This document shows positions 12,131 through 33,041 of a stretch of 64,000 nucleotides of DNA, piece after piece. This DNA is from Acidobacteriota bacterium (GTDB lineage: Bacteria > Acidobacteriota > Blastocatellia > Pyrinomonadales > Pyrinomonadaceae), in the NCBI GenBank assembly GCA_025463135.1, contig JAOAPY010000001.1:1-64000 (forward strand), written 5' to 3'. The stretch's first letter is position 1. Each line of letters starts with the position of its first letter. The position numbers were made by a program, and so were the translations under genes. The notes below the pieces were generated by a model. The model had not been told where the DNA came from. It ran no database searches and was given only the letters and a program-made list of their open reading frames with translations.

Positions 12131-12535
12131 ATGTCCATGAAACTTTACGTAGGAAATCTCTCGTTCCAGACCTCCAGCGAGGATTTGCAGCAACTTTTTT
12201 CGGCAGCCGGCACGGTTGAATCAGCGAGCGTCGTTGAAGATCGTGACACAGGCCGTTCACGCGGCTTTGGCTTTGTCGAAATGTCCAGCAAAGAAGAGGG
12301 CGAAGCAGCGATCGCGCAATTCAATGGCAAGGAAGTCAACGGCCGCGCACTAAACGTCAACGAAGCCAAGCCCCGCGAAAATCGGGGCGGCGGCGGTGGT
12401 GGCCGAGGCGGATTCGGCGGCAACCGTGGTGGATTCGGTGGTAATCGCAGCGGCGGCGGCGGCGGCGGTGGTCGCAGCGGCGGCGGTTACGGCGGCGGCG
12501 GCGGCGGCGGTGGTAACCGCGAGCCACGCTGGTAA
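12131..12535 (+). CDS. Glycine-rich RRM RNA-binding protein
   Basis: The first 80 residues form one RNA-recognition motif with RNP2 (LYVGNLSF) and RNP1 (RGFGFVEM) intact. The remaining ~50 residues are almost only Gly, Arg, Asn and Ser (RGG-like), as in the cold-inducible Rbp proteins of cyanobacteria and plants. It should bind single-stranded RNA in the cytoplasm. Its neighbours downstream on the same strand are a DEAD-box helicase and IF-1, suggesting an RNA-chaperone/translation cluster. The GGAAAGG site stands 10 bases before the ATG. Confidence 0.94.
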   Translation: MSMKLYVGNLSFQTSSEDLQQLFSAAGTVESASVVEDRDTGRSRGFGFVEMSSKEEGEAAIAQFNGKEVNGRALNVNEAKPRENRGGGGGGRGGFGGNRGGFGGNRSGGGGGGGRSGGGYGGGGGGGGNREPRW

Positions 12536-12742: not shown

Positions 12743-13963
12743 ATGAATTTTTCTGAACTGGGATTGGCCCCCGCGCAAGTGCGCAGTTGCGAATCTCTTG
12801 GATACACTGAACCAACACCAATTCAACAGAAAGCAATTCCTGTTGTCCTCCGCGGCGAGGACTTGATTGGTTGTGCCGAAACCGGCACTGGCAAGACTGC
12901 CGCATTTTTTCTTCCCATCATTCAAAGACTCACTGAGTCGTCGAAACCGGGAGTGCGCGTGCTTGTGCTTGCGCCCACTCGTGAATTGGCCCTCCAGATC
13001 GAGCAGATGTATGGTGAGCTTAACCCGGTCAAGCGCAATCGTTGTGTGGCCATCATCGGCGGCGCAAGTGCCAGCCGGCAAGTCGACGGTCTGCGCAAGC
13101 ATCCGAGCGTGGTGATTGCCACCCCCGGACGTTTACTCGACCTGATGGAGCGACGCTCTGTCGACCTTTCATTCGTGGAAGTGCTGGTCCTGGACGAAGC
13201 TGACCGCATGCTCGATATGGGTTTTCTACCCGCAATTCGACGCGTGCTCTCGGCTTTACCAACTAACCGCCAGACCTTACTCTTTTCGGCAACCATGTCC
13301 CCGGAAATTGAACGACTGGCGCGCACCACCATGCGTCAACCAAAGATGATCGAAGTCAGTCCCCGCGGACAGGCGGCGATGATGGTCGAGCAGACAGCGT
13401 ATGCAGTCGCGGCGGAATCGAAAACCGCGTTGCTGCTTGATTTGCTGGAACGCGAACGCTTTGAAAGAGTGCTGGTGTTTACCCGCACACGTCGCGGCGC
13501 CGAACGTCTTTCGCACATTCTGGAAGCGCGCGACCACAAGGTTAATCGCATACACGCCGATCGCTCGCAATCACAACGCGAGTCGGCGCTGCGTGGCTTT
13601 CGCGACGGCCGCACACGCGTGTTGGTGGCGACCGATATCGCGGCCCGTGGGTTGGACGTGGACCTGGTCTCGCATGTGATCAATTATGACGTGCCCTCGG
13701 CGCCGGAAGATTACGTGCATCGCATTGGTCGTACGGGTCGTGCGGGCAACAGCGGCAAAGCGATTACCATCGTAACGCCGGTTGATGAACTTTCGATGCG
13801 AGCCATCGAACGCCTGACGGGACAAAACGTAAAACGTGTCGTACCGGCGGGATTTGGCGGCGCGCAGAGGAGCGAAGGCAGCAACAAGAAGCCGGCGGGA
13901 TCTATGCCGCGTTCGAATGGCGCCTTTACACGCTCCTTTCGTCCCCGTCGCGCGAGTAGATAA
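12743..13963 (+). CDS. rhlE: RhlE-like DEAD-box ATP-dependent RNA helicase
   Basis: The 406-residue protein has every helicase motif in order: Q motif (GYTEPTPIQ), Walker A (AETGTGKT), PTRELALQI, TPGRL, DEAD (VLDEADRMLDMGF), SAT (LFSATM), then in domain 2 LVFTRTRRGAE, ATDIAARGLDV and HRIGRTGRAG. A short basic tail follows (RPRRASR). It unwinds RNA duplexes, probably for ribosome assembly or mRNA turnover at low temperature. The roughly 200-base leader between it and the RRM gene shows no obvious terminator with a U tract, so co-transcription is possible. Confidence 0.95.
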   Translation: MNFSELGLAPAQVRSCESLGYTEPTPIQQKAIPVVLRGEDLIGCAETGTGKTAAFFLPIIQRLTESSKPGVRVLVLAPTRELALQIEQMYGELNPVKRNRCVAIIGGASASRQVDGLRKHPSVVIATPGRLLDLMERRSVDLSFVEVLVLDEADRMLDMGFLPAIRRVLSALPTNRQTLLFSATMSPEIERLARTTMRQPKMIEVSPRGQAAMMVEQTAYAVAAESKTALLLDLLERERFERVLVFTRTRRGAERLSHILEARDHKVNRIHADRSQSQRESALRGFRDGRTRVLVATDIAARGLDVDLVSHVINYDVPSAPEDYVHRIGRTGRAGNSGKAITIVTPVDELSMRAIERLTGQNVKRVVPAGFGGAQRSEGSNKKPAGSMPRSNGAFTRSFRPRRASR

Positions 13964-14088: not shown

Positions 14089-14310
14089 TTGTCTAAAGAT
14101 GATTTAATTCCAGCCGAGGGCACCATAATCGACAAGCAGCCCAACGCCTTCTTTAAAGTCCAACTGGATGGTAGCGAGCACGTCGTGCTCGCGGCTATCT
14201 CAGGCAAGATGCGCAAACACCGCATACGAATTTTGGTCGGCGACCGCGTCAGCGTGGAAATGTCGCCCTATGATTTGTCGCGGGGCCGCATTACTTACCG
14301 GTTCAAATAG
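14089..14310 (+). CDS. infA: Translation initiation factor IF-1
   Basis: IF-1 binds the ribosomal A site with IF-2 and IF-3 during initiation. The 73-residue S1-type OB fold is complete: [48 protein letters not shown]. The start is TTG at 14089, supported by GAAGGAG ending 7 bases upstream. This copy lies outside any ribosomal-protein operon and follows an RRM protein and a DEAD-box helicase, so it may be an accessory, stress-linked copy; whether a second infA exists cannot be seen here. Confidence 0.95.
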
Positions 14311-18439: not shown

Positions 18440-18525
18440 TTTTGCCTTTTCTGCTTACCTTCCTTTCAATATGACCGTCACAAGAGTATCTCATTCTCTT
18501 CCTCTCGTCTCATTTCCGTCGCACT

Positions 18526-19116
18526 CTATCCCGCAGCTCGCCATGGTCGCCCTAATCCCTTTCGCAATAGCTGGGCAATCTTTGGCATAAGGAAAAGTGA
18601 GATTACGACAAAGCCGGTGACCAAAATGATCAAGGCAATTGGGAGAAAGAAAGCCATCACCATCGAGGCGATTGCCACCACGTCCTCCACCAGACTCACC
18701 ACGATGTTTGAAAACGGTTCCGGACTCAAGTTTACCGCGGCGCGCGCAGTTGCTTTCGTGCCGTGCGCGCTCAAGGCCAAGCCTCCGCCCACCAGCAAGG
18801 CCACTATTTGCACCTTGCGATCAAAATCGCCAAAGGCCGCGGCCGCCAGCACCGCGCCCGCGGGAATCCGAATAAACGTGTGAATCACATCCCAGGTGCT
18901 GTCGAGATACGGAATCTTGTCGGCAAAGAATTCAATGACAAACAGGGCTGAGGCTACACCGATGATCCATCCATTTGTTAGCACTTCGAGTTCGCCAGGC
19001 AGAGGGAGATGGGCGAAGCGCCCAAGCAAACCAAGTGTGGCTACTGTGGCGTACAAACGAATGCCCGAGACCCAACTGCTTCCCATTGCCAGTGCCAGCG
19101 TGCTGATAAGATTCAT
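18526..19116 (-). CDS. DUF4126 family integral membrane protein
   Basis: The 196-residue protein has four or five hydrophobic segments and the family hallmarks SWVSGIRLYATVATLGLLGRF near the N-terminus, FFADKIPYLDSTWDVIHTFIR in the middle, and ALSAHGTKATARAAVNLSPEP after it. The function of the family is unknown; the repeated glycine/alanine helices suggest a small membrane channel-like or scaffold protein. It stands alone between a TPR protein and a divergent small membrane protein. Confidence 0.85.
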   Translation of the reverse strand: MNLISTLALAMGSSWVSGIRLYATVATLGLLGRFAHLPLPGELEVLTNGWIIGVASALFVIEFFADKIPYLDSTWDVIHTFIRIPAGAVLAAAAFGDFDRKVQIVALLVGGGLALSAHGTKATARAAVNLSPEPFSNIVVSLVEDVVAIASMVMAFFLPIALIILVTGFVVISLFLMPKIAQLLRKGLGRPWRAAG

Positions 19117-19414
19117 GCGTCACCTCCAGCCAACACAAAATACGAAAGGAGTTCCGCGGATGTTCATCGTTGCCTTTGGAGTGCGGTGACTTGTCTCCGC
19201 TTTGGCCTGTGACGGCCAACTCCGCACTCACTCAATGACCCTCTCAAGGTACGGTTGCTGCGACAAGTCGCAGCGACCAAAGCGCCGACAGCCGGGATCC
19301 TCGGCGCGGCAGCCGCGTCGACGCACTCCAAAAGCATATTCTGGCGCAATCCAAGCGAACTAAGATAAGATGCGCCGCCAACGTTACCAACTTCGCAGCG
19401 GAGGTCCCCTCAAA

Positions 19415-19849
19415 ATGAATAAGGTACGATTGATCCTGACAATTGTAGTGGTCTTTATCCTGGCAAACTTCAGCGGCTTTTTTATTCACGCCATTTGGTT
19501 GAAACAGGATTACATGCCAATTGCCCAACACTATCGCCCCGAAGGCACGGAAAAAATGCCTTTCATCATACTAGCGTATTTGAGTTTCGCTATCGGCTCG
19601 GTGCTTATTTACGCTAGAGGAGTTGAAAATAAGCCACTGCTGATGCAGGGGGTGCGCTTTGGCTTATTAGTGTTTTTGGTCCTCACCATACCTTCGTTCT
19701 TCATCGCCTATGCGGTGCAGCCGGTGCCCGCGGTACTGCTGTCCAAACAAGTGCTGGCGGAGTTGGTGGACAAGATCCTTTTGGGAGTAATGACTGCGTT
19801 AGTCTACGGAAAAGGGCGCTTGGGCAGTTCGCCCAGCGCCCTTGTTTAG
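19415..19849 (+). CDS. Small four-helix membrane protein of unknown function
   Basis: The 144-residue product has four hydrophobic segments (VRLILTIVVVFILANFSGFF, IILAYLSFAIGSVLIYA, FGLLVFLVLTIPSFFIAYAV and VDKILLGVMTALVYG). The start is ATG 19415 because GGAGG lies about 10 bases upstream; an upstream start at 19370 would add a polar tail. I do not recognise the family. Confidence 0.72.
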   Translation: MNKVRLILTIVVVFILANFSGFFIHAIWLKQDYMPIAQHYRPEGTEKMPFIILAYLSFAIGSVLIYARGVENKPLLMQGVRFGLLVFLVLTIPSFFIAYAVQPVPAVLLSKQVLAELVDKILLGVMTALVYGKGRLGSSPSALV

Positions 19850-19864
19850 AAGCCGGTCATCTCG

Positions 19865-19895
19865 TTCTCATTCTCACCTGGTTTCAACCAGGTGG
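19865..19895. repeat. CTCATTCTCACCTGGTTTCAACCAGGTG palindromic element
   Basis: ACCTGGTTTCAACCAGGT is a perfect short palindrome preceded by CATTCTC. Related copies lie at 24590-24628 and 33875-33978. Confidence 0.8.
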
Positions 19896-20074
19896 CTGCG
19901 AGTCATTGATCTTTGAGTACCAATGCTGGTCCACTTTTCAGCCAGCCAACCCGTGCCAAACCCGCCGCGTCCAATTATGCGGACCAGAGTATAGGGACCA
20001 AGAGTGTCGCCATCCGCCGGCATAAGACAGTCGATCCTTGAGGGGACATACGCTTCTTGAATCCTCGGCTCGTC

Positions 20075-20602
20075 TTACTTCACGCTAACCAATTCAACAT
20101 CAAAAATCAGCGTAGCATTGGGAGGAATGTCCGGAGGCTGGCCCGTGGCGCCATAGCCGAGCGCCGGCGGAATGATCAAGTGACGTTTACCGCCGACCTT
20201 CATAGTCGCAATCGCTTCATCCCAACCCTTGATGGCCCGGCCCATGCCGACTGGAAACTCAAAAGGTTTCCCACCCGGTTTTTCACTGCTGTCAAAAACC
20301 TTTCCATTGGTAAGGGAGCCGGTATATTTCACTGAAGCTATTTGGCCGCGCTTTGGGCTTGCGCCTGTCCCTTCAACTATATCGGTATACTTTAAGCCAG
20401 TTGCAGTCGTTTTTTCCCTGGCGCCGGTGCGCGTGTACAACAGATATCCAGCGATCGCGACCAGCAGCGCCGCGGCGACGACAATCGCAATTGTCTTAAG
20501 CTGCTGCTCGTTTTTTGTGCTCCTGGCTGTTTCTCGGTAAGCAGCCATTTCTCTGGGGCGCTTTTTGGCTTTTGAGATCTTTCTATGACGACTTTGCGGC
20601 AA
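20075..20602 (-). CDS. Membrane-anchored FKBP-type peptidyl-prolyl isomerase
   Basis: The 175-residue protein has a basic N-terminus, one transmembrane segment ([20 protein letters not shown], about 37-56) and a C-terminal FKBP domain: [49 protein letters not shown] and [13 protein letters not shown]. The catalytic pocket residues (Tyr, Phe, Asp, Val, Ile, Trp, Tyr) are all present. It should speed prolyl isomerisation of exported proteins on the outer face of the inner membrane. Confidence 0.94.
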
Positions 20603-20688
20603 TCTTTTATCTCCCTCCGAACGTCCTGAACAGAAATAAGAGTGTCCTTATAACGTTTTCAGCAGGTGATGACAACTTGAGCGGCCAT

Positions 20689-20806
20689 TTGTCCGACGAA
20701 CTTCAGTTTGTCGAAATCGTCGAATACTCAAATGTTGGGTCAACGAATAACCTGGCACCTCTGGGGCATCGATTTGTCTCATCATCGACAAACCGAAGTT
20801 TGTCTT
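20689..20806. repeat. TGTCCGACGAACTTCAGTTTGTCG palindromic element
   Basis: GTCCGACGAACTTCAGTTTGTCG and the distal CGACAAACCGAAGTTTGTC are inverted relative to one another. It is a diverged member of the family at 11638-11738, placed upstream of the metK riboswitch. Confidence 0.75.
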
Positions 20807-20857
20807 ACCGTCGAATAGCCGCTTGCATCTCAATACGTGCTTTGCTACTCTCGCGCC

Positions 20858-20940
20858 CGCATCACGAGCGATCCGCGAGGATCCGGCAACCGAACAGGAG
20901 ACGGTGCCCGGGGCTGCTGCTAATTTAGCGCCCCGATGTG
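20858..20940 (+). promoter_or_regulatory. SAM riboswitch (SAM-I/IV-like) controlling metK
   Basis: The aptamer core is readable. P1 pairs CGCATC (20858-20863) with GATGTG (20935-20940). It encloses ATCACGAGCG, then hairpin GATCC-GCGA-GGATC (20870-20883), then CCGGCAACC with P3 GGC-A-ACCG (20885-20892) closing on CGGTGCC (20902-20908), then P4 GGGGC/GCCCC (20910-20934). The strings TCACGAGCG, CCGGCAACC and GGTGCC are those of SAM-I/SAM-IV family aptamers. It is followed by hairpin CAGAAGC/GCTTCTG (20941-20959), about 160 bases before the metK start. SAM binding should repress its own synthesis. Confidence 0.78.
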
Positions 20941-21100
20941 CAGAAGCCCTTCGCTTCTGAAACTGCCAGGTCTCCAATGTTCGTTTGCCACCCGTTGCTG
21001 ATGCGATTGGTGGCGTTTTCAGTTTCATGCACGGCGGATCGTCGTCCGTGTTGATCGCAGTAAAGAGACTATTCCTATTTTTTTGAGGTGATTCCCCACT

Positions 21101-22219
21101 ATGACTACGAAGCAATCCCGTTTTACCTTCAGCTCTGAATCAGTTTCCGAAGGACATCCCGACAAAGTTTGCGACCTGATCGCCGACTCAATTCTCGATG
21201 CCTATCTCGAACAGGACGCGCAGAGTCACGTCGCCTGCGAAGTTCTGTGCAAGGGCGGCAATGTTGTCCTGGCCGGAGAAATTACTTCCAACGGCAAAGT
21301 CGATCACGAACAGATCACCCGTCAGGCAATTCACGAGATCGGTTATGTCGAACCCAACGAAGCGTTTAATGCCGAGGGCGTAACGATTACTCAATTCCTG
21401 ACCACACAGTCTGCGGAGATCAACCAGGGTGTTGATTCCGCCAAGACGGAACACGGCGATCAGGGCGCCGGCGACCAGGGCATAATGTTCGGTTATGCGT
21501 CAAACGAAACGCCTGAGCTGATGCCGCTGCCGATTCATCTGGCCCACAAGCTGGCTAAACAGCTGGCCGACGATCGGCGCGCCGGTGTGGTCAACTTTTT
21601 ACGACCCGACAGCAAGACCCAGGTGTCGGTGATCTATGAAGGCAACGAGCCAAAGTTTGTTTCGGATGTGGTGGTGTCAACTCAACATTTTGAAGGTGTC
21701 GATCAGAACGAGATTAGAAATTATGTAATCGAGAAACTGGCGCCCGCCGGACTCGGTTCATGGTTCAGTCAGGAAACACGTTTCCTGGTGAATCCAACCG
21801 GCAGCTTCTCTCATGGCGGACCTTCCGCCGACTGCGGCGTGACGGGTCGCAAGATCATCGTCGACAGTTATGGTGGTATGGCGCCCCACGGCGGCGGCGC
21901 CTTTAGTGGCAAGGACCCTTCGAAGGTGGATCGCAGCGGCGCTTACTTTTGTCGCTTTGTGGCGCGCGAACTCGTTAAGAATGGAATTGCAGGCAAAGCA
22001 CAGGTACAGGTTGCTTACGCAATCGGGGTAGCTCAACCAGTCTCGATTAAGGTGGAAACGTTTGGCACCGGAGATGACGAGGCGGCGGTCGAGTTTTCGC
22101 GCGGCTTCGACTTTCGCCCGGCGGCAATCATTGAGCGTTTGGATTTACTGAGGCCGATCTATCGATCGACCACGAACTACGGTCACTTCGGTCGGCCTGG
22201 CCTGCCCTGGGAAGCGTGA
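21101..22219 (+). CDS. metK: S-adenosylmethionine synthetase
   Basis: The enzyme forms S-adenosylmethionine from methionine and ATP. Signatures are intact: SVSEGHPDK at the N-terminus, GAGDQGIMFGYA (methionine/ATP loop), and GGGAFSGKDPSKVDRSGAY (phosphate-binding loop). At 372 residues it is slightly shorter than the common 380-400. GAGGTG is 11 bases upstream of the ATG. The upstream SAM-type riboswitch makes end-product control likely. Confidence 0.97.
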   Translation: MTTKQSRFTFSSESVSEGHPDKVCDLIADSILDAYLEQDAQSHVACEVLCKGGNVVLAGEITSNGKVDHEQITRQAIHEIGYVEPNEAFNAEGVTITQFLTTQSAEINQGVDSAKTEHGDQGAGDQGIMFGYASNETPELMPLPIHLAHKLAKQLADDRRAGVVNFLRPDSKTQVSVIYEGNEPKFVSDVVVSTQHFEGVDQNEIRNYVIEKLAPAGLGSWFSQETRFLVNPTGSFSHGGPSADCGVTGRKIIVDSYGGMAPHGGGAFSGKDPSKVDRSGAYFCRFVARELVKNGIAGKAQVQVAYAIGVAQPVSIKVETFGTGDDEAAVEFSRGFDFRPAAIIERLDLLRPIYRSTTNYGHFGRPGLPWEA

Positions 22220-22227
22220 TCAAACTT

Positions 22228-22300
22228 AAGCGCAGACTGTTAGTTTGCGGTCCCGCTAAGGTCGGCCCGCAAGCCAGCAGCTCCCGTTACGGTTAAATCA
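22228..22300. repeat. Diverged GCAAACTAACAGTTTGCG element
   Basis: CGCAGACTGTTAGTTTGCGG followed by CCCGCAAGCCAGCAGC...GTTACGG is a degraded member of the family best seen at 23770-23841. Confidence 0.65.
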
Positions 22301-22302
22301 AA

Positions 22303-22599
22303 CTAAGCGCGAGGCTGTGCGCGGCTGGCGCTGAAACACTCGCCACATAAAACGGGTCGTCCGCTTGAGGGTTTGAAAGGCACCGAGTCAACCTTGCCGC
22401 ATTGATCGCACGTGATTTCAAAGCGCTGACGTTCTCCACCCGCTCCTCTGGGTGATCCAAAGTTAGTGCGGCGGGCGTCTCGGCAAGGCTTGCAACGCTT
22501 GGGGTGAGTTAGGTTTCGCTCCTGGTAATATTCTTGCTCTCGTTCCGTAAAGGGGAAGGCGGAATTGCACTCTACGCAGGTAATTTCGATGTCTGGCAT
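22303..22599 (-). CDS. Double zinc-ribbon protein
   Basis: The 98-residue product has two zinc-binding halves. The first is ITCVECNSAFPFTEREQEYY ... RCKPCRDAR (CxxC/CxxC). The second is ITCDQCGKVDSVPFKPSSGR ... LCGECF. This matches the probable zinc-ribbon (zf-trcl) plus CxxC-type tail arrangement. The ATG at 22599 is preferred over one 30 bases upstream because a purine-rich GGAGAAAAAAGAG precedes it. A paralogue with the same layout lies at 48853-49242. The role is unknown; such proteins are often nucleic-acid or RNA-polymerase associated. Confidence 0.85.
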   Translation of the reverse strand: MPDIEITCVECNSAFPFTEREQEYYQERNLTHPKRCKPCRDARRTNFGSPRGAGGERQRFEITCDQCGKVDSVPFKPSSGRPVLCGECFSASRAQPRA

Positions 22600-22809
22600 G
22601 ACTCTTTTTTCTCCGAGAGCATAGCCCATCGGGTTATGCCCTCATATGTTCGGAGCGGCTATCAGAGTTCCTTGATTGATCCGGGAGGAACTCAAGAGGG
22701 ATTTCTTTCAATCAGCGTTGAGACATTGTGCTCCGAAGGCCTTAAACGGCGAGGAGTTTACTCCACGAAGGAGTTAGTTACAACAGAAACCCGGTGTGGA
22801 AAAGACAGG

Positions 22810-23760
22810 TTAGCGATATTCAGCACTGAGTTCCTTAACGTGAGCAACCACGGTGCCGCCCAGAGTTTTCAGGTTATAGCCTCCCTCAAGACAGGAAACA
22901 ATTCTCCCCTGGCAAGTCTCGTCGGCCCACTCCCTGATGTTTCGCGTCATCGCTACAAAGTCGTCATCATCCAGCAGTAGTTGGCCCAGAGGATCGCCCT
23001 GGTGCGAGTCAAAGCCGGCGGAAATGATTATTAAGTCAGGACGGAACTTTTCATTGATGTCCTGCAGTCCCGCCTCCAGTGCCCGCTTGTGCTCGCGCGC
23101 CGGCGTCTGCGCGCGCAACGGAACGTTCAGTGTGTAGCCTCGTCCGCGACCGATACCTGTTTCGCCACGCGCTCCAGTGCCGGGGTACCAGGGATACTGG
23201 TGCAGCGAAAAGAAAAATACTTTCGGGTCGTCATAAAAGATTCCCTGCGTGCCGTTGCCGTGATGAACGTCCCAGTCAACAATTGCCACTCGCTCGATCT
23301 CCGCGTAGCGCGATTGGGCGTATCGAGCCGCAATCGCAACGTTGTTGAAAAGGCAAAAGCCCATCGACCGATCGGCAGTAGCATGGTGCCCGGGCGGACG
23401 GACGGGAACAAAAGCGTTGGTCGCCGCTCCGCTCATTACCAGGTCGATAGCCTCACAGGCGGCCCCTGCCCCATGCAGTGCCGCTTCAAGTGAATGCAGC
23501 GAAACCGTCGTGTCCACATCCAATGAGCCGAGGCCGTCTTTGACGGCGTGCTCTACAGTCTTGAACATCTGCGGCGTATGGCAAGCCTGCACGTCTCCGC
23601 GCGGTGCCTCCCTTGCTTGCACCTCGAGCAGCGAAGGCCATAGATCGATGTTGCCACGCAATGCTTCCATGACAACTGCATAGCGCGACGGCGATTCCGG
23701 ATGTTGTGGACCAGTGTCATGTTTCTCGAAAACGGGATGATGAATGATGGCAGTAGGCAT
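22810..23760 (-). CDS. Histone deacetylase-family (acetoin-utilisation-like) amidohydrolase
   Basis: The 316-residue enzyme belongs to the arginase/deacetylase fold. [15 protein letters not shown] opens the domain; [16 protein letters not shown] carries the catalytic His pair; [11 protein letters not shown] and [13 protein letters not shown] supply the zinc ligands (Asp, His, Asp). The ATG at 23760 is chosen because the longer frame extends into a palindromic repeat. Bacterial members deacetylate polyamines or acetylated proteins; the actual substrate is unknown. Confidence 0.92.
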
Positions 23761-23769
23761 GCGGCGATT

Positions 23770-23841
23770 GTAACGCAAACCTGTTAGTTTGCGTCCGGCT
23801 GAATGGCATTCAACGATCCGCAAACTAACAGTTTGCGTTAC
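23770..23841. repeat. GTAACGCAAACTGTTAGTTTGCG inverted-repeat element (type copy)
   Basis: GTAACGCAAACCTGTTAGTTTGCG at the left and CGCAAACTAACAGTTTGCGTTAC at the right form an inverted pair around CTGAATGGCATTCAACG, itself a palindrome. Related copies: 7062-7085, 22228-22300, 29096-29170, 33042-33106 and 42006-42027. Confidence 0.9.
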
Positions 23842-23873
23842 GGTTGGTGCTAGAATTCAAGCGAGGCAAAGTA

Positions 23874-24449
23874 ATGGGACATTATCGTGAGCCACAACCG
23901 AGACGCAGGATGGAAGTTCCTATTCCACCGCGGAAAGGGTCCAGGCAGAAAGGCGTGTCTTCCAGGCATTATGGTCAAGACAGAGCGGGCACTAATCGCG
24001 CGCTGATTGACGCAGGAATCGTTGTCCTTACAACTTTGCTGACGACCGTGTTGCTGCTTGCCATAAGTGGCCAGATTGGCGACACAACCGCTGCTGATCT
24101 GATTGCCGCGCCGCCACCCGCGCTGCTCACGACTCCGGCTACGCCACTGCAAACAGCCACTCCCAATCTTACTCCCACACATCCGGTGGCGGCTTCGTCA
24201 GCGGAAAAACAGAATCCCACGCCGGTTGCCACACCCGACGATACCGAACTTCAAGCTGCGATAGATAGTAAGTTGGGAGACGATGCCAGTTTGTCCCAGC
24301 TCGGGATCACGGCCACGGTGAATGAAGGGAAAGTAGTTCTGGTTGGAACGGCGCCTTCCGATGAGATGAAAGCTAAAGTCGAAAAGCTGGTGCGCAGCGT
24401 GAAAGGAGTCAAACAGATCAATAATCAGATTGTGGTGATAACTCAGTAA
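23874..24449 (+). CDS. Membrane-anchored BON-domain protein
   Basis: The 191-residue protein has a basic N-terminus, one transmembrane segment (about 45-65), a Pro/Thr/Ala-rich linker, and a C-terminal BON domain (about 125-191) with GITATVNEGKVVLVGTAPSDEMKAKVE and VKGVKQINNQIVV. BON domains bind phospholipid or envelope partners and occur in OsmY-like stress proteins. The ATG at 23874 follows GAGG by 7 bases. It is divergent from the HDAC-like gene. Confidence 0.88.
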   Translation: MGHYREPQPRRRMEVPIPPRKGSRQKGVSSRHYGQDRAGTNRALIDAGIVVLTTLLTTVLLLAISGQIGDTTAADLIAAPPPALLTTPATPLQTATPNLTPTHPVAASSAEKQNPTPVATPDDTELQAAIDSKLGDDASLSQLGITATVNEGKVVLVGTAPSDEMKAKVEKLVRSVKGVKQINNQIVVITQ

Positions 24450-24589
24450 TTAACGAATATCGAACGGGTGATGTCGATGCAGAGCTTGCTTGTTCTTAGA
24501 TAGTTTTCGTAACAGCGTCTGCTCACCTGGAAGCTGTGAATTAACTAGCCCTCGTCATTCAACTCGAGCCTCGCAACAAGTTGCCCTCT

Positions 24590-24628
24590 TATTCTCAACC
24601 AGTTTCAACCGGCTGAGAATGAGATGAA
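24590..24628. repeat. TTCTCAACCAGTTTCAACCGGCTGAGAATGAGAT element
   Basis: Diverged copy of the ACCCGGTTTCAACCGGGT family, here between the BON gene and a convergent hypothetical gene. Confidence 0.7.
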
Positions 24629-24655
24629 AGCGAAGACACTCGCGCCCTTCAGCGT

Positions 24656-25090
24656 TCACTCTTCTGCGCGGACTTCGATCTCACCTGTGCTCAACGAGGT
24701 TTCAACAATCAGGTTTGCCGACTCGCCAAACAATATCAATCGTCTGCGATCCTCGCGGGCGAAAAATGTAACTTCGGTGATCACGCAATCTATCGGCGCG
24801 GGCGTCAGGATCTCAAATCCCTCGGAGGATGGGCCATCTCGCTCAAGCGACTCTATCTCTGCGTTCAGTTGACTCCTCACTTCGGCCTCAATTTCCAATT
24901 CCCTGAGGGCCGCAGTTTGCGGCAGCAGGACCATCTGGCCATCAAGATAGACGGTCCAGATGAATCCGATATCAAGCAGGATATGCAGCGACTCATCCAA
25001 TACAAAGTATCCGGTCACACTGGTGCCGATGACGTGCGCGATCACGTGGTCCTGATGAGTGCTCGTTTCCGCGGTTGACCATTCATTCAT
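24656..25090 (-). CDS. Hypothetical cytosolic protein
   Basis: The 144-residue product has no signal or membrane segment. It is acidic and shows alternating hydrophobic strands (YFVLDESLHILLDIGFIWTV; LILFGESANLIVETSLSTG) around a charged helix (LRELEIEAEVRSQLNAEIESL). I recognise no family. It begins immediately after a repeat-rich spacer that separates it from the MFS gene on the same strand. Confidence 0.6.
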   Translation of the reverse strand: MNEWSTAETSTHQDHVIAHVIGTSVTGYFVLDESLHILLDIGFIWTVYLDGQMVLLPQTAALRELEIEAEVRSQLNAEIESLERDGPSSEGFEILTPAPIDCVITEVTFFAREDRRRLILFGESANLIVETSLSTGEIEVRAEE

Positions 25091-25124
25091 CGCTTAAGCC
25101 ATGGGGGGTGACGTGTAGGGTGTA

Positions 25125-25262
25125 GTGAGAGATTTTCCATTTGTCATTGGCGAATTCAACTTGAAGTGCGACAGAATAAAACCAATTCACCGTTGCACTT
25201 GTAAGTTGAATCCACCGAATGACAAATGAGAAATTATGAGAAATGACCAATGGAAAATCTGC
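25125..25262. repeat. Imperfect palindrome built on TTTTCCATTTGTCATT
   Basis: GATTTTCCATTTGTCATTGGCGAATTCAACTTG on the left is mirrored by the reverse-complement text CAAGTTGAATTCGCC... / ATGACCAATGGAAAATC on the right. Other members are at 26677-26812 and 36690-36806. Confidence 0.8.
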
Positions 25263-25347
25263 TCACCTCTTCCACCCACTCGCGACATCCCCAGCAGTAC
25301 GATCGTTACGCTAAGAACTCCCTCTTACTACACCCCACACCCCACAC

Positions 25348-26634
25348 CTACTCCCTCTCCTCATGGCCTTCATAGCTCAACAGACTCCTGGCCTTCATCA
25401 GCGCAATACCGGCCGCCAGGATTGAACCCAAGCCACCAGTCATGACAGAGAGCGGCGCACCGATCAACGCCGCCACCGTGCCCGCCTCTACTTCCCCGAG
25501 CTGCGGTCCACCCATGAAAAACACCATGTTGATGGAAGTCATACGACCGCGCAGATGATCCGGCGTGACCAGTTGGCGAATAGTCTGGCGCAACACCGTG
25601 CTGACAGTGTCCGCGGCTCCGGCCAGCGCCAGCATCAATAATGAAATCCAGAAAACTCGAGAGAGACCAAAAGCCATTGTCGCCAGACCAAAGACTGCCA
25701 CTGAACCAACCACGAGTTTGCCCTGCCGGCGAAATGTTCCCATCCGTGCCATCACCAGTCCGGTAATCACCGCGCCAATTGCCGGCGCCGCCGACAACAG
25801 TCCAAAGCCCCTCGCGCCCACGTTGAGAATTTTGTCGGCAAAGATCGGCAGCAATGCCGTTGCCGAAGCAAAAAAAGTCGCGGCGAAATCCAGCGTCATC
25901 GTCTGGACGATGATCGGCGTCTTGCGAACAAATGACAGGCCTTCCTTCAGCGCACCAAAGCTCAGCCGCGAAGTGGCCTCACCTTCTTTCAAAGCCGGGC
26001 GTCCACTGGTGCGAATCGCGATCAACGCGGCGATCACTGCCAGATAAGATGCAGAGTTTATGCCGTAGACGATTGCCGGGCCATGACTCGCCAAAAGAAA
26101 ACCGGCCAGGGCCGGACCGCCGATCATCGCAAAATAAAAGACCGTAACACCCAGGCTGATTGCGTTGGGAAAGTCGCGGGCGGGTACGAGCGTCGGCATC
26201 AATGATTGCCGCGCCGGCGTGTCGAACGCTGTGGCCGCCGAAGCAACCGCCGTCAACAAATAGATGGGCCAAACACGATTGAGACCCGCGATGGTCAATA
26301 GCGTAAGGCAGCTGGCACTTGCCAGCATCACGCTTTGCATGATGATCATCAAACGCTTGCGATCGACTGCGTCCGCAAAAACACCACCGGCAAGCGAACA
26401 CAAAATGATGGGAGCGCCACGAAAGAACCCCAACATACCCAGGGCAAAGGCGGATTTAGTCAGCAACCATACATGCCAATGCAATGCCGCGAGCTGCATC
26501 TGCGATCCTGTTACAGATACTATCTGGCCCAGCCATAGCAGGCGAAAATCGCGATGTCGCAAAGCGGCAAATGCGGGATATCGATACTTATCGGGAAGCT
26601 TCTGGGGAGGTTGGGAAGAGTTGCTCGCGGGCAT
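25348..26634 (-). CDS. MFS transporter (MFS_3 / EntS-like exporter)
   Basis: The 428-residue protein has about twelve hydrophobic segments and the N-terminal motif FRLLWLGQIVSVTGSQMQ typical of the MFS_3 group. The loop GGVFADAVDRKRLM matches the conserved cytoplasmic loop A motif. Members export siderophores, macrolides or other small molecules; no substrate can be assigned. A palindromic spacer flanks it on both sides. Confidence 0.88.
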   Translation of the reverse strand: MPASNSSQPPQKLPDKYRYPAFAALRHRDFRLLWLGQIVSVTGSQMQLAALHWHVWLLTKSAFALGMLGFFRGAPIILCSLAGGVFADAVDRKRLMIIMQSVMLASASCLTLLTIAGLNRVWPIYLLTAVASAATAFDTPARQSLMPTLVPARDFPNAISLGVTVFYFAMIGGPALAGFLLASHGPAIVYGINSASYLAVIAALIAIRTSGRPALKEGEATSRLSFGALKEGLSFVRKTPIIVQTMTLDFAATFFASATALLPIFADKILNVGARGFGLLSAAPAIGAVITGLVMARMGTFRRQGKLVVGSVAVFGLATMAFGLSRVFWISLLMLALAGAADTVSTVLRQTIRQLVTPDHLRGRMTSINMVFFMGGPQLGEVEAGTVAALIGAPLSVMTGGLGSILAAGIALMKARSLLSYEGHEERE

Positions 26635-26676
26635 TCGGAGAATGACGGATTACGGTTCGAAGACGAGGTTAGACGG

Positions 26677-26812
26677 TTTCATTTTCCATTTGTCATTTGA
26701 CGTTTCTCATTCGTCATTGGGAACTAATCTCATAGCTTCCGTGAAAAAGGAAATCATCGCCGCACGGCCAAATGAGAAATGTCCAATCACAAATGGACAA
26801 TGAAATCTTCTA
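26677..26812. repeat. Imperfect palindrome built on TTTTCCATTTGTCATT
   Basis: TCATTTTCCATTTGTCATTTGACG at the left is inverted as AAATGAGAAATGTCCAATCACAAATGGACAATGAAA at the right. Same family as 25125-25262 and 36690-36806. Confidence 0.8.
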
Positions 26813-26843
26813 CCTCTCGCGATAGGTGCTTCTCAACAGCACC

Positions 26844-27689
26844 TCACCCCCGCGGCGCGCGTACCACCTGCCAGATTATTCCCACCCGCGCCAACAACCT
26901 GATGACGTACCCGGAAAGATCCACTTCATACCACTGCCATCCGTGTACAGCCGCGGTTGGTCGCGCGTGATGATTATTGTGCCAGCCCTCACCGAAGGTT
27001 GCCAGACCCAGCCACCACACGTTGCGACTCTCGTCTTTGGTATTGTTCGGTCGCTGTCCCCACACATGACATACGCTGTTGATGCACCACGTAAAATGCC
27101 ACAGCGTCAACGTGCGCGCTATCGTGCCCCATAGCACGCCGCGCCAGCCCGCCAGGACATAACAAAAGATGCCGGTCAAAAACCACGGCAACGTGAACAG
27201 CGCTCCCTTGTCCAGCACTCGCAGCCACGGGTCGTCCCCGGATACATCGGGCACCAACTCGCGATAATCGCTGCCCTCTTCGGCGTCACGTCGCATGATC
27301 CAACCCATGTGCGCATGCAGGAACCCCATCAACGGCGTGTGCGGATCGCCATGCTTGTCGGTGGCTTGATGATGGCGGCGATGTATGCGGGCCCAACGCG
27401 CGGGACCACCCTGCAAGGCCGCGGCGCCCATCCAGGTAAGAATACGTCGCAGCCAGGTATTACACTTAAATCCACGGTGCGTTAGTAGACGGTGATAGCC
27501 GATGCCGATGGCAAAGGTAGTACAGAAATACAAACCCAGGAACAGCGCCAGGTCAATGGCGCGTGGCCAAATCCAAAAACAGAGCAAGCCGCAAACGTGC
27601 AGGCTTACGACCAGAAAGCTCTGGATCCAATTGAGTCTCAGTCTGTCCGTTGAGGCTGGTCGCGGCAGGGTTGTACCGATCATTTCCAA
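26844..27689 (-). CDS. Fatty-acid (acyl-CoA-type) desaturase
   Basis: The 281-residue integral membrane enzyme carries the three histidine boxes that bind the di-iron centre: HRLLTH near residue 65, RIHRRHHQATD near 105 and HNNHH near 240. Four hydrophobic segments flank them. It should introduce a cis double bond (delta-9 type) into acyl chains. It starts directly after the stop of the upstream gene at 27690, so it is the last gene of the small operon led by the 106-residue protein at 28825, linking membrane fluidity with an omega-like subunit. Confidence 0.93.
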   Translation of the reverse strand: MEMIGTTLPRPASTDRLRLNWIQSFLVVSLHVCGLLCFWIWPRAIDLALFLGLYFCTTFAIGIGYHRLLTHRGFKCNTWLRRILTWMGAAALQGGPARWARIHRRHHQATDKHGDPHTPLMGFLHAHMGWIMRRDAEEGSDYRELVPDVSGDDPWLRVLDKGALFTLPWFLTGIFCYVLAGWRGVLWGTIARTLTLWHFTWCINSVCHVWGQRPNNTKDESRNVWWLGLATFGEGWHNNHHARPTAAVHGWQWYEVDLSGYVIRLLARVGIIWQVVRAPRG

Positions 27690-28028
27690 CTAGTCCAAAT
27701 AATGTTCGCCGAGCTTTGCCTGTAAGGCAGAAGGCACGTTTTTCCAATTAGCCATCAGGAGTTCTCGCGGAGCAAACTCAGAGACATTCACGCGCGAGCC
27801 ACGCCACTGCCCTGCCTTCTCCTCGTAGCGCCACTGATAATATGGACCATCACCACGCCGGCTATAGAAAACTGCCGGGCCAGTCCGCGGCTCCGGGCCC
27901 ACCGATCTCAGATACATTCGTAGTCCGTTCATCTTAAAGTTGCCGTGCAACTCTGTCGTTGAAGTTGCGGCGGGTTTGACGGTTGGTCGAGTAAAGTTGT
28001 AACCACGCGCCTTGTATAACGTAGTCAT
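27690..28028 (-). CDS. Hypothetical protein translationally coupled to rpoZ
   Basis: The ATG at 28028 overlaps the rpoZ stop in an ATGA arrangement, so this start is preferred over the longer frame that merely shadows rpoZ. The 112-residue product is basic and aromatic-rich (YYQWRYEEKAGQWRGSRV), without signal or membrane segment. No family is recognised. The stop immediately precedes the desaturase start. Confidence 0.7.
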   Translation of the reverse strand: MTTLYKARGYNFTRPTVKPAATSTTELHGNFKMNGLRMYLRSVGPEPRTGPAVFYSRRGDGPYYQWRYEEKAGQWRGSRVNVSEFAPRELLMANWKNVPSALQAKLGEHYLD

Positions 28029-28291
28029 GACGCGACCGTCTTTACGCCCGCGGCATCTTTTGTGAAGCGCGTGAACGGCACTAATCCCCGCTTTACCTCT
28101 TCGAGGGCGATGCTGGTGTTTCGTCGCTTGAGCGGATCTGCCTGGATCCTGGGCGCCGAGCCGTGCAGCAATTGTTTGGTCCTCAGGGCGGCCACGATGA
28201 TCAGCCTGAAGCTCGAATCGATGCCGGGCCATTGTTGTTCGTGCACCTTGTCGACAGGAGCGTTCTTCTTATTTTCTTTTTTCTCAGCCAT
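28025..28291 (-). CDS. rpoZ: RNA polymerase omega subunit-like protein, divergent
   Basis: The 88-residue product shows the omega core: DSSFRLIIVAALRTKQLLHG, then a short linker, then NTSIALEEVKRGLVPF. In typical omega proteins the helix reads AAKRARQL; here it is AALRTKQL. AAGGA stands 9 bases before the ATG at 28291; the longer upstream frame reads through the neighbouring zinc-ribbon gene and is rejected. The usual neighbours gmk and coaBC are absent, so this could be the genome's only omega in an unusual setting or a paralogue. Confidence 0.8.
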   Translation of the reverse strand: MAEKKENKKNAPVDKVHEQQWPGIDSSFRLIIVAALRTKQLLHGSAPRIQADPLKRRNTSIALEEVKRGLVPFTRFTKDAAGVKTVAS

Positions 28292-28350
28292 ATGTTTCAT
28301 TCCTTGAGAGTTGCCTGGGTCACGAGTCGTTCCCACCAGTGCGCATTCGA

Positions 28351-28503
28351 TTAAAGAAATCTGATTAGCAGAAACAATGCCGGCACCGCGACCATCGCGA
28401 GCACCGCAATCTGCAACACATTCATACCCGAGTGATGACAGTTTGGGCACCGAATCTGCCAAAGAGGCAATACCGTTCCACAGTCATGGCAATACCAAAT
28501 CAT
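28351..28503 (-). CDS. Tiny zinc-ribbon protein with C-terminal membrane helix
   Basis: A 50-residue ORF, with zinc ligands CHDC near the N-terminus and CPNC about 11 residues later, then one hydrophobic segment (VLQIAVLAMVAVPALFLLI). The ATG at 28503 is one base after the stop of the preceding gene (TAAAATG), which argues for coupled translation. Ends about 60 bases before rpoZ. Function unknown; similar small zinc-ribbon membrane proteins are common but uncharacterised. Confidence 0.72.
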   Translation of the reverse strand: MIWYCHDCGTVLPLWQIRCPNCHHSGMNVLQIAVLAMVAVPALFLLIRFL

Positions 28504-28504
28504 T

Positions 28505-28825
28505 TTAGCCATTGCCATTACCCTTTCCCGATCCCCGCGCCAGGATTACAAGTTGCGCGTGGTCGATCCGGTGGCCACGCTTCAGATTTACCGCCTCCTG
28601 ATCCACGAGCCAAAAGTGTGAAGGGCTACTGCCATTCGCACGCCCCAGATCCTTGAGCACGGTTTCATCCACAGTCACAGGATGAAAAACAAGCATTTCA
28701 ACGTTGAATGCTCTGGCTTGCGCGGCGTCCCTGCTGCTTTGAAAAACGGGAACGCGAAAAGCCCCTTTGTCATCGAGTGCAAACCAATCGCCGTTCGCGC
28801 GCTGCATAGCCCATAGTTGGCTCAT
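28505..28825 (-). CDS. Hypothetical small cytosolic protein, first gene of the omega operon
   Basis: The 106-residue product begins at ATG 28825, 8 bases after a strong GGAGG; the longer frame upstream has no such signal. It starts MSQLWAMQRANGDWFALDD, has a central alpha/beta pattern (FNVEMLVFHPVTVDETVLKDL) and ends in a Gly/Asn tail. No known family. It heads the run 28825-26844: this gene, tiny zinc ribbon, omega-like, hypothetical, desaturase. Confidence 0.75.
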   Translation of the reverse strand: MSQLWAMQRANGDWFALDDKGAFRVPVFQSSRDAAQARAFNVEMLVFHPVTVDETVLKDLGRANGSSPSHFWLVDQEAVNLKRGHRIDHAQLVILARGSGKGNGNG

Positions 28826-29185
28826 TGCGATACCCTCCGCGCCCGCGCACACTTCCGCGCTGGTTTGGACCGTTGGCTTGTTGACTGGCGCAGTTGAAAG
28901 CAGAACGGCGTGATTGCTGACATCGGATTCTCCCTGGCGCTCGTCGCATTTGGAAAGCACTGGACGGCACAAGGACGGGGAACGCTACGCGTAAATCCTG
29001 ATGTCGAGAGTGGTTTTCTAAAGAAACCAACTATTTACATTTGCAGTGTATCACACATAGGGTCGAAAGCTGTGGGCAGCGCGCGCATTGATCTGTAACG
29101 CAAACTGTTAGTTTGCGATCGCTGAATGACATTCAACGGTCAAGCAAGCCAGCAGCTTGCTTGCATAACGCTTCAGCGGGCTTTA
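28826..29185. other. Intergenic region with promoter space and a palindromic repeat
   Basis: No supported gene. The right part (29096-29170) is a copy of the GCAAACTGTTAGTTTGCG family. The left part presumably holds the promoter for the omega operon. Confidence 0.45.
29096..29170. repeat. GTAACGCAAACTGTTAGTTTGCG element
   Basis: Left arm TAACGCAAACTGTTAGTTTGCG, centre CTGAATGACATTCAACG, right arm AAGCAAGCCAGCAGCTTGCTTGCATAACG. Same organisation as 23770-23841, with a diverged right arm. Confidence 0.85.
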
Positions 29186-30670
29186 TCAATTGGCGCCATA
29201 TACTTCACTCAACTTACGAAAGTGATATCCCATCGCCGCCAACCGGAGTGACTCTGCCAGTTTCTTATGATGCCCGGTGATGGTGTTAGCGAGAAAACGC
29301 CAAAACTCTTTTCGTTCGCGATCAAGCACCCCGAGCCGTATCGCAATACGCAACAGAGAAGCAATACTGTTCAGCACGTCGTAATGTTGTGGCTCAGTGC
29401 CGCTTTGTTCGGTCCGCTTCATGGAATCGAGTGCGCGCCGATAGTATTCGGCCGGACTGTAGATTGTCCGCATGATGGCTTGATAACCCGCAATCAAGCG
29501 TGCCGGATCCATCTTCGTCACAAAGTTGAAGGTGCACACAGTGTTGTTACCGGAAGCTTCGCCCAACAGACGCCCCTCGCGCTCGAGTCGCTTCCAGAGT
29601 TGCGTATCGGGAAGCGCATTGAGCAATCCCACCATTGCCAGTGGGATAGCGCTCTCACGGATAAAGTTAATCTGGCGCTCAAAAATATCGTCCGGATCGT
29701 TATCGAAGCCAACGATAAACCCGGCCATGACTTCCATACCATAACTTTGAATGCGCTTAACGGAGTCCAACAAGTTACCGCGGTTCTGTGACTTTTGCGC
29801 TTCCTTCAGGCTCTCTTCAACCGGAGTTTCAATCCCAAGAAAAACTCGTCGGAAGCCGGCCTCGCGCATGTTCCCCAGCAACTCTTCGTCATCGGCGAGA
29901 TTTACGCTGGCTTCCGTGAGCAGCGAAAAGGGATGGCCATTCTCTTTCTGCCAGCGCGTCAACTCCGGCAACAACTGCCGCACATTTTTTTTATTGCCGA
30001 TGAAATTGTCATCAACAATAAAAACTGTCCCGCGCCAGCCAAGATCGCGTAACGCATCGAGTTCGGCCAGGACTTGCTGATTGCTCTTGGTGCGTGGCAC
30101 GCGTCCGTAGATCTCAATGATGTCGCAAAACTCGCAACTGAAGGGACAGCCGCGCGAATACTGAATTGACATCGCGCTGTAGCGTTTCATTTCCGCAAGA
30201 TGAAAATCGGCGATTGGTGTAACCGAAAGCGGTGGGCGTTCAGCGGCTTTGTAAGATGCTTTGGCTTCCCCGCGTTCCAGGTCTTGCACAAACTGCGGCA
30301 GCGTGGTTTCAGCTTCACCGAGAAAGACGTGATCGGCTTCCGGTAAATCCTCGATCGTGGTTGTTACGTAGGGCCCGCCCAGAACGACTTTTTTGCCGAG
30401 GTGCTTGCAACGCTTGACGACTTCGCGCAACGAATCTTTTTGCACCAGCATCGCGGTGGCGAAAACCATGTCGGCCCACTCGATGTCCGACTCTTTCAAA
30501 GAGCGCACATTCATATCGACCAGGCGTCGCTCCCATGACTTGGGAAGCAGCGCCGAGACAGTCAAGAGTCCCAGAGGCGGAAAGGCGCAGCGCTTTCCTT
30601 CAAACGGCAAAGCATGGCGGAAGCTCCAATAGGTATCGGGAAATTCCGGGTTTATTAGCAGAACCTTCAT
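29186..30670 (-). CDS. B12-binding radical SAM enzyme, HpnR-like (hopanoid C3 methylase group)
   Basis: The 494-residue protein has an N-terminal cobalamin-binding Rossmann domain (about 1-150; [25 protein letters not shown]), a radical SAM domain with the 4Fe-4S motif CPFSCEFC near residue 175, and a C-terminal DUF4070-like helical region ([12 protein letters not shown]). This architecture matches class B radical SAM methylases such as HpnR, which methylates hopanoids at C3. The ATG at 30670 follows AAGGAGG by 7 bases. No other hopanoid gene is adjacent, so the substrate is an inference. Confidence 0.85.
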
Positions 30671-31079
30671 CTTGTCCTCCTTACCTCCAACAAAGCGAAA
30701 CTCAAACCAACAGTTGCGATGCAGACCGGGCCGGCAGCAGCCAAGTTTCACCCCATTAGAGTAGGCCCAATCAAGAAACCCGGCGGTAATAGTTCTGTAA
30801 GACTTGGCTGAACTCACGGCCCATGCTTGCTTGCCTCTTCGCGTTTAATCGAAAAGGTGATCGACACAGAAAAACAACACAAAGCTCACCGTATCATTTA
30901 ATAGAGGGGTGGATTTGGCTGATAAAGATCGCTAAGATACGCGCGTGACCCCATCACGAGTGCCAGACGACAACTAAAGACGTCACCCCGCGTCTTTCGA
31001 CAAAGACGGCAGGCTGACTTCCCAGTCGCCGAAATTTCACTTGCAAGCAAGAGATTTGCACGACACGTGGGAGATTTTC
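30671..31079. other. Divergent promoter region
   Basis: This spacer lies between the radical SAM gene (minus) and the hybrid kinase (plus). It should hold both promoters. Repeated GTCTTTCGACAAAGAC text around 30990-31012 forms a short palindrome. No gene is seen. Confidence 0.4.
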
Positions 31080-33041
31080 TTGATCAAACTCAATAACGAC
31101 ACCCTCGAAAGCGCTGACCTGTTAGCAGGCAGTCCCGAAGACCTCGCTACTTTGCTCATTCCGCAAAGTAACTGGAGTCAAAAGCTTCAGGGAACTCACT
31201 GCGCACAGTTTTACGACGCAGATTCGTTTCTACTTAACTCGCTAAACGATTTTGTTGGCACCGGACTCAATTCCGGCGACGCGGTCGTCATAGTCGCAAC
31301 CAAAGCGCACCGTGAAGAGCTTGACGAACTACTAACAACCGCGGGCTTTGATGTTTTCGAAGCCATAGCCTCGGGACAATATCTGTCGCTGGACGCGGCC
31401 GATACCCTGACGACGTTCATGGTTGACGGATCGCCCGACGCGCGACGATTTTCGAAAACTATTGGCGGCATCGTCAAAAGAGCAGCACAGGGCGGACGAA
31501 TGGTGCGCATCTTCGGAGAAATGGTCGCGCTGCTTTGGGCCGAAGAGAAATGTGATGAAGCAATTCGTCTGGAAGAACTTTGGAATGATTTGGGAAAGAG
31601 TCACCCGTTCCTATTGTTCTGTGCCTATCCAATGCACGTCTTTGGCCGTGATGCGCTGGCGGGGCCGCTCCTGAAGATATGCGCCGAACACTCTGAAGTA
31701 ATACCGGCGGAGAGCTATACCGCACTCGAAACGCAGGACCAGCGGCTCCGCGCCGTTCTCCAATTACAGCAGAAAGCACGATCACTCGAAGCTGAGATTG
31801 CAGAGCGTAAGAAAGCAGAGGAAGGACTGCGTGCTTCACTGGTCCGAGAGCAGATGGCCCGCACTGAAGCCGAGACAGCCAACCGCATGAAGGATGAGTT
31901 CCTGGCGACTGTTTCTCATGAGTTGCGCACTCCCCTGAACGCTATCATGGGATGGTCTCACATGCTGCGAAGCGGCAGGCTCGACCCGACAGTGGTAGAA
32001 CGGGCCCTGGAGACGATCCATCGCAACGCCAAAGCGCAAGCCCAACTTGTGGAAGACATCTTAGACGTGTCGCGAATGATTACCGGGAAGCTGCGCCTGG
32101 ATATGGAACCAGTTGATGTCGCTTCTGTAATTAACGCTGCCATTGACGCCGTCCAGCTTGCGGCGGAATCGAAAGGCATCCAACTCAAAGTCACGCTTGA
32201 TCCTTCGGCCCGGCACACCTTTGGAGATTCCGGCCGTTTGCAACAGGTCGTATGGAACCTGTTGTCGAATGCGATCAAATTCACGCCTTCGGGCGGCAGG
32301 GTCGAGCTGCGATTGCGGCGCCTGGATTCGAATATTGAGTTGCTCGTCAGCGATACGGGACAGGGCATCGAGGCTGAGTTTCTGCCCTACGTTTTTGATC
32401 GGTTTCGTCAAGCCGACTCAACCAGCACACGGCAAATGGGTGGGCTTGGTCTGGGGCTGGCCATCGTACGACATATGGTCGAGCTTCACGGAGGCAGCGT
32501 TGCCGCCTTAAGCGACGGCGAAGGATGCGGTTCAACCTTTACGATCACATTACCACTTGCAAGTGAGCGTGACCGCGCCAAGTACCGGCGCTCGGTCACC
32601 GGAACGCTGAGGCCGATCGACGAAGAGTTACCCGGAATGGCGTCTCCACCTTCACTCGACAATGTGCAGGTGCTGCTGGTTGATGACGACCAGGACACAC
32701 TGCAACTGTTAACGGTCTCACTGAGCGAATCAAACGCCAGGGTCCGAACTGCCTCATCGGTTGCCGAAGCGCTGGAGATGTTGGAGTGGTTCCAGCCCGA
32801 TGTGCTGGTTTCCGATCTCGCGATGCCTGGTGAAGATGGCTACTCCCTGATTAGCAAGGTGAGAGCGTTCGAGGCGGAAAACGGCAAGCACACTCCGGCA
32901 GTCGCTTTGACTTCTTACGTCAGAATTGAAGATCGCACTCGGGCCTTGTCCGCCGGCTTCAATATGTTTGTTCCCAAACCCATCCAATCGAATGAACTAA
33001 TCATCGCCATTGCGAGCCTGACCGACTCAAATTCCCTGTGA
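31080..33041 (+). CDS. Hybrid histidine kinase with MEDS sensor domain
   Basis: The ~653-residue protein starts with a MEDS (DcmR-type) sensory domain (about 20-205; HCAQFYDADSFLLNSL, then GRMVRIFGEMVALLW). A coiled linker (SLEAEIAERKKAEEGL) leads to HisKA with the phospho-His in VSHELRTPLN near residue 280, an HATPase_c with N (NLLSNAIKF) and G (GLGLGLAIV) boxes, and a C-terminal receiver with DLAMPGEDG holding the phospho-Asp. It has no membrane segment, so it senses a cytosolic cue. The TTG at 31080 follows TGGGAG; a TTG at 31041 is an alternative. The receiver has no output domain, so a partner should exist elsewhere. Confidence 0.9.
   Translation: MIKLNNDTLESADLLAGSPEDLATLLIPQSNWSQKLQGTHCAQFYDADSFLLNSLNDFVGTGLNSGDAVVIVATKAHREELDELLTTAGFDVFEAIASGQYLSLDAADTLTTFMVDGSPDARRFSKTIGGIVKRAAQGGRMVRIFGEMVALLWAEEKCDEAIRLEELWNDLGKSHPFLLFCAYPMHVFGRDALAGPLLKICAEHSEVIPAESYTALETQDQRLRAVLQLQQKARSLEAEIAERKKAEEGLRASLVREQMARTEAETANRMKDEFLATVSHELRTPLNAIMGWSHMLRSGRLDPTVVERALETIHRNAKAQAQLVEDILDVSRMITGKLRLDMEPVDVASVINAAIDAVQLAAESKGIQLKVTLDPSARHTFGDSGRLQQVVWNLLSNAIKFTPSGGRVELRLRRLDSNIELLVSDTGQGIEAEFLPYVFDRFRQADSTSTRQMGGLGLGLAIVRHMVELHGGSVAALSDGEGCGSTFTITLPLASERDRAKYRRSVTGTLRPIDEELPGMASPPSLDNVQVLLVDDDQDTLQLLTVSLSESNARVRTASSVAEALEMLEWFQPDVLVSDLAMPGEDGYSLISKVRAFEAENGKHTPAVALTSYVRIEDRTRALSAGFNMFVPKPIQSNELIIAIASLTDSNSL

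Follow-up and report, generated by a model that had tools for sequence, protein, structure and literature searches.

The window, i.e. the whole stretch of 64,000 nucleotides that was analysed, is located on contig C25 of a 6.48 Mb genome. The assemblies that carry a related omega subunit belong to the Pyrinomonadaceae/Blastocatellia (Acidobacteriota). From 26844 to 28825 five open reading frames were found on the minus strand in the order g106, zr, omega2, g112, desaturase, exactly where an earlier note on this DNA had placed them. They are listed together with an upstream gene and a possible terminator:

29186..30670, minus strand: B12-binding radical SAM protein, upstream of the five genes, a recurrent neighbour in 7/15 genera
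28505..28825, minus strand: g106, 106 amino acids, no known family, kept upstream of zr/omega2 in several genera
28351..28503, minus strand: zr, 50 amino acids, putative CxxC...CxxC zinc ribbon, then a single hydrophobic helix of the transmembrane type
28025..28300, minus strand: omega2, paralog of the RNA polymerase omega subunit (RpoZ/Rpb6), start at 28300 or 28291
27690..27932, minus strand: g112, family-specific beta-rich protein of 80 amino acids (112 if ATG 28028 is used)
26844..27689, minus strand: fatty-acid desaturase, PF00487, three histidine boxes, start at TTG 27689 or ATG 27683
26780..26799, minus strand: possible intrinsic terminator 3' of the desaturase, from a consensus scan alone

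The stops and starts of these genes had been said to overlap or nearly touch. This holds for TAAAATG, the junction of the g106 stop with the zr start, and all other junctions of the run are tight as well with the exception of zr-omega2. There, the gap is 50 nt if omega2 starts at ATG 28300, or 59 nt if it starts at ATG 28291, which is better placed behind an AAGGA. Therefore, the zr/omega2 pair is not tightly coupled. The ATGA reported at the next junction is present, but in it the omega2 stop overlaps an ATG upstream of the likelier g112 start. Because g112 of nearly all relatives begins at the equivalent of the internal Met 33 (MNGLR...), position 27932 is the more likely start, and the supposed 112-residue protein probably has 80 residues. 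The desaturase start is either 0 nt (TTG 27689) or 6 nt (ATG 27683) past the g112 stop.

An Rfam scan of positions 11500-31500 had a single match, a tRNA at 11514-11587, i.e. no known RNA element within or upstream of the operon. A sigma-70 consensus promoter scan found none where 1.9 were expected by chance, a consensus which is uninformative for this phylum. The terminator scan returned six terminator-like sites against 3.1 expected in shuffled sequences. An anti-phage system was considered and dismissed, as PADLOC had no match for any of the five proteins.

The third gene of the run had been described as a divergent omega subunit. This was borne out. Omega2 exceeded the cut-offs of Pfam RNA_pol_Rpb6 (PF01192; 32.6 bits, cut-off 26) and NCBIfam rpoZ (TIGR00690; 32.7 bits, cut-off 23.6), and its profile matched solved omega and archaeal Rpo6 chains with E values down to about 1e-8. 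The second rpoZ proposed for this genome was found as well: a canonical copy, omega1, is located after gmk on contig C24 and is 53% identical to omega2. As noted earlier, omega2 lies away from gmk; the gmk position is held by omega1, as in 17/17 canonical loci examined. Copies of the omega2 type were present in 28 of 120 family genomes, including that of the window, and 27 of these 28 also had a canonical omega. The exception, G004, is 78% complete. In a tree of 49 short sequences 29 of 30 omega2 copies formed one group with a support of 89/90; the remaining copy, G132b, was a long branch. Pairwise dN/dS of omega2 was 0.03-0.18.

A column comparison showed that omega1 and nearly all of the 30 omega2 copies share a core consisting of R29, L30, A34, R37, K39-L41, G44, R48, T59, I61-A62, E65 and G69. 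Thus, in profile score, conserved core and overall identity omega2 resembles the canonical RpoZ. It differs from it as an extra copy off gmk and by its linkage to zr and g112. It also differs by near-fixed, lineage-wide switches seen in 30/30 copies (Q/K to L36, P to N58, R to S60, K to L70) and by a conserved N-terminal WPGID motif that is absent from omega1. The systematic exchange of residues that omega subunits otherwise conserve, the WPGID motif and the highly stable association with zr and g112 would also fit a protein repurposed outside of RNA polymerase, e.g. as a scaffold with a membrane-anchored zr and g112. With the omega core kept and the Pfam and NCBIfam omega cut-offs passed, we regard this as improbable.

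A second RNA polymerase core in this genome was discarded as an explanation; there is one match to PF04997 (rpoC). One match each was also found in G009, G029 and G015, two were found in G012 and none in G010. Both omegas are likely to share one beta' subunit, though perhaps not in every genome. The two rpoC N-terminal matches in G012 (contigs C48 and C67) have equal scores and are possibly a real duplicate or an assembly redundancy. G010 has two omega2 copies (L044 and L045 on contigs C101 and C37), of which one has g112 and the other zr; the module looks as though it was divided after a duplication.

Second omega-family genes were also seen outside the Pyrinomonadaceae. At one of the two loci concerned, L176 (G340:C6) and L174 (G049:C125), a DEAD-box helicase lies 2.5 kb away; at the other there is a B12 radical SAM gene 1 kb away. 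L177 (G027:C85:110981-111217; 10.0-10.3 kb of the locus) encodes a strongly divergent third omega-like protein (MVIVVSLRHKQLNNGANPRV...). A DnaJ-type zinc-finger match lies 0.2 kb upstream of it, and the opposite strand has a desaturase at a distance of about 0.5 kb; this genome contains neither omega2 nor g112.

In many genera zr, omega2 and g112 followed one another in this order on one strand, mostly less than 110 nt apart. The earlier note had named conservation of gene order in relatives and purifying selection on the small frames as the points to check. Both were found: dN/dS of omega2, g112 and zr was below 1 throughout (0.03-0.58). The order conserved across genera and the low pairwise dN/dS argue that the arrangement is more than chance. 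In some genomes of genus g3 (L136-L139) zr and g112 are adjacent and directly followed by infA2, a gene for a second translation initiation factor IF-1, and omega2 is absent. This suggests that omega2 was lost from an intact module. As these loci retain zr, g112 and infA2, omega2 is dispensable to the island.

Of the small partners, zr is a zinc ribbon by motif alone, i.e. by its two CxxC pairs. It stayed below the Pfam cut-offs (best DZR with 19.9 bits, cut-off 27.3). Its homologs adjoin omega2/g112 in 11/15 genera, and its dN/dS of 0.26-0.58 indicates a weaker constraint than on omega2 or g112 (g112 0.03-0.09). g112 was present in 31/119 family genomes and in 0/278 other Acidobacteriota; in the sample of 297 phylum genomes all matches were within the family. 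Its AF2 model is fairly confident (pLDDT 82), and Foldseek gave no match with E <= 0.001. The best VIA match was weak and Sm/SH3-like (an Sm-like protein, Z 4.6, rmsd 3.9, 68 residues aligned), and a single g112 member matched DUF6697 at E 0.0013. For g106 there was no Pfam or NCBIfam family and no convincing PDB relative; its AF2 model is poor (pLDDT 48).

Neighbouring frames were clustered without prior choice and then named by Pfam/NCBIfam. RRM proteins, DEAD-box helicases, a second IF-1 and desaturases recurred, and so did DnaJ-type zinc fingers, Crp/Fnr and XRE regulators, B12 radical SAM proteins and a zinc-ribbon protein of no known family. A frequent layout (L033, L034, L036, L042), mostly on one strand, was RRM - DEAD - IF-1 - zinc protein - desaturase - zr - omega2 - g112 - Crp - radical SAM. 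In the window, three members form a block on the plus strand (12131-14310), 14-16 kb from omega2:

12131..12535, plus strand: RRM RNA-binding regulator, NF058537, belongs to this type of island, 16 kb off in the window
12743..13963, plus strand: DEAD-box RNA helicase of the RhlE/CshA type, island member
14089..14310, plus strand: infA2, second translation initiation factor IF-1, paralog of infA on contig C50

At least one of RRM, DEAD, IF-1 or desaturase was located within 6 kb in 22/30 omega2 loci compared to 0/17 canonical omega loci (Fisher 3.9e-7). The eight omega2 loci with none of the four include some on short contigs. When omega2 and g112 loci were pooled, RRM was near in 11/15 genera, DEAD in 9, desaturase in 8 and IF-1 in 8. 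Genomes contained 2-4 RRM genes, and the counts expected per 12 kb were about 0.008 for RRM, 0.005 for desaturase and 0.002 for infA2. infA2 passes the TIGR00008 equivalog cut-off (101.1 bits, cut-off 61.15). It was found in 22/37 family genomes, i.e. in 15/15 with omega2 and in 7/22 without (Fisher 1.8e-5, uncorrected for phylogeny). The p-values denote strength and are not formal tests, as homology was used to sample the loci and genomes of one genus do not count as independent. Most of the genomes were assembled from metagenomes and have short contigs, so that linkage appears lower than it is. A generic CspA query had zero matches in these loci.

Could omega2 simply be a redundant duplicate, a dosage or backup omega at a position without functional meaning? 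Duplication does happen, as about 12 of 297 sampled Acidobacteriota genomes have at least two omega-family matches. However, omega2 is one old clade under strong purifying selection with conserved partners and the co-location just described, and we consider mere redundancy very unlikely.

infA2 loci without omega2 nearby often retain RRM-(DEAD)-IF1-zinc protein. On these grounds omega2 appears to have been added to an already older island. The zinc-ribbon protein which recurs after IF-1 (L043:8480-8830 and about 18 other loci) has about 117 amino acids and no Pfam or NCBIfam family above cut-off; its C-terminal GQTMTHxTYGxGEV segment may be Tudor-like, as judged by eye. Similar dispersed stretches resembling inverted repeats (GTAACGCAAACTGTTAGTTTGCG; GGCACGGGCGTCCCGCCCGTGG) were noticed at 29095-29160 and 14319-14470 of the window and at 1226-1320 of L001, i.e. 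close to each of the two omega genes and behind infA2.

The earlier note had proposed a link between transcription and membrane-lipid adjustment. The desaturase of the window scores 61 bits with PF00487 (cut-off 29.7) and has the boxes HRLLTH, HRRHH and HNNHH. The genomes contained 1-4 desaturases, and 22/43 loci from 8 genera had a desaturase, of either of two subtypes, at most 6 kb from the module. Genes of the window subtype, 76-78% identical, lie directly downstream of g112 in genera g1, g26 and g10 only; those straight after g112 are in G025 and in three genus-g10 genomes. The other subtype, about 37-42% identical to that of the window, is usually upstream (g16, g12, g3 and others). The idea that desaturase adjacency is limited to the window and G025 fell with these further loci. 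The lipid link thus stands in part: desaturases recur near the module, but the downstream, co-directional arrangement is confined to three genera. Location supports the link indirectly, whereas the data indicate a wider set of RRM, DEAD-box helicase, IF-1 paralog and desaturase.

The narrow spread of the downstream desaturase, together with an order and strand that differ between genera, would fit an ordinary chromosomal hotspot collecting unrelated small genes; the desaturase would then be adjacent by coincidence. The co-occurrence of infA2 with omega2 and the fact that very few island genes would be expected by chance speak against this, and we deem it the least probable of the readings.

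What then may omega2 do? We consider it about an even chance that omega2 is a family-specific omega duplicate fixed in a cold- or stress-acclimation island, a swap-in subunit for a single beta'. The observed basis of this proposal is a selected, conserved paralog, the gene order, the co-occurrence with a second IF-1 and the co-location. Omega2 would probably still bind to the one beta' subunit and, under certain circumstances, most likely a temperature downshift, displace omega1 or compete with it. The exchange may change promoter or sigma preference, or the stability of the core. RRM protein and DEAD helicase would maintain RNA structure, the IF-1 paralog translation initiation and the desaturase membrane fluidity; zr with its putative TM segment and g112 would probably serve as accessory partners. 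We favour a swap-in omega acting in the cold or a related stress since genes of these types take part in known temperature responses. Against it count the CspA query without a match, the g3 loci that lack omega2, the distance and opposite strand of the RRM-DEAD-IF1 block in the window and the eight omega2 loci with none of the four genes nearby.

In Synechocystis, rbpA, crhR and desaturases constitute a cold set, and RbpA3 stabilises desaturase mRNA (PMC6789579). The island resembles these cyanobacterial genes (rbpA, crhR, desA/desB) in its combination of RRM, RNA helicase and desaturase. The cyanobacterial set is cold-induced, whereas that of the Pyrinomonadaceae, known from the genes alone, is clustered with omega and IF-1 paralogs. 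In mycobacteria, the small CarD/RNAP-binding protein CrsL acts as a repressor of desA and of a DEAD helicase and alters growth at 16 and 45 °C (PMC12709188). CrsL resembles what is proposed for omega2, being a small RNAP-associated regulator tied to desaturase, DEAD-box helicase and growth temperature; unlike omega2, it is a disordered CarD partner and no omega paralog, and we do not claim a sequence relation. The omega of Synechocystis is needed for heat acclimation (PMC4227741) and so influences temperature acclimation as proposed here, yet it is that organism's canonical omega and the acclimation is to heat, not to cold. From RcGTA omega is known as a contact for regulators (PMC9638019).

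RRM, DEAD and IF-1 proteins also have roles in general RNA metabolism. Possibly, omega2 is a real RNAP variant in a general stress or slow-growth island, the signal being nutrient limitation, redox or growth phase. Crp/Fnr, XRE, B12 radical SAM and DnaJ-type zinc-finger genes as recurrent neighbours are consistent with this, and in Synechocystis salt, osmotic and light stress also elicit responses of the RNA helicase gene and of further cold genes (PMC6789579). Yet the repeated pairing with two desaturase subtypes fits a control of membrane fluidity better than pure nutrient stress, and we rate a general stress signal as unlikely, if conceivable. A more detailed version of the cold swap-in omega is doubtful: on cooling, omega2 would replace omega1 on the only beta' subunit to give an alternative polymerase core and, with anchored zr and g112, couple the membrane state to acclimation transcription, while the IF-1 proteins would be swapped in parallel.

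Our literature search found no omega paralog of this kind described; most subscription journals were outside the search and novelty is limited to its scope. It returned nothing relevant on a cold response of Acidobacteria or, among largely off-topic matches, on IF-1 paralogs. A function of omega beyond core assembly has been a long-standing open question. Two omegas on apparently one beta', with omega and IF-1 paralogs in one stress-type island, constitute a natural experiment on what omega does. If the proposal is true, this would suggest that bacteria can retune the polymerase core itself, beyond sigma factors, for stress.
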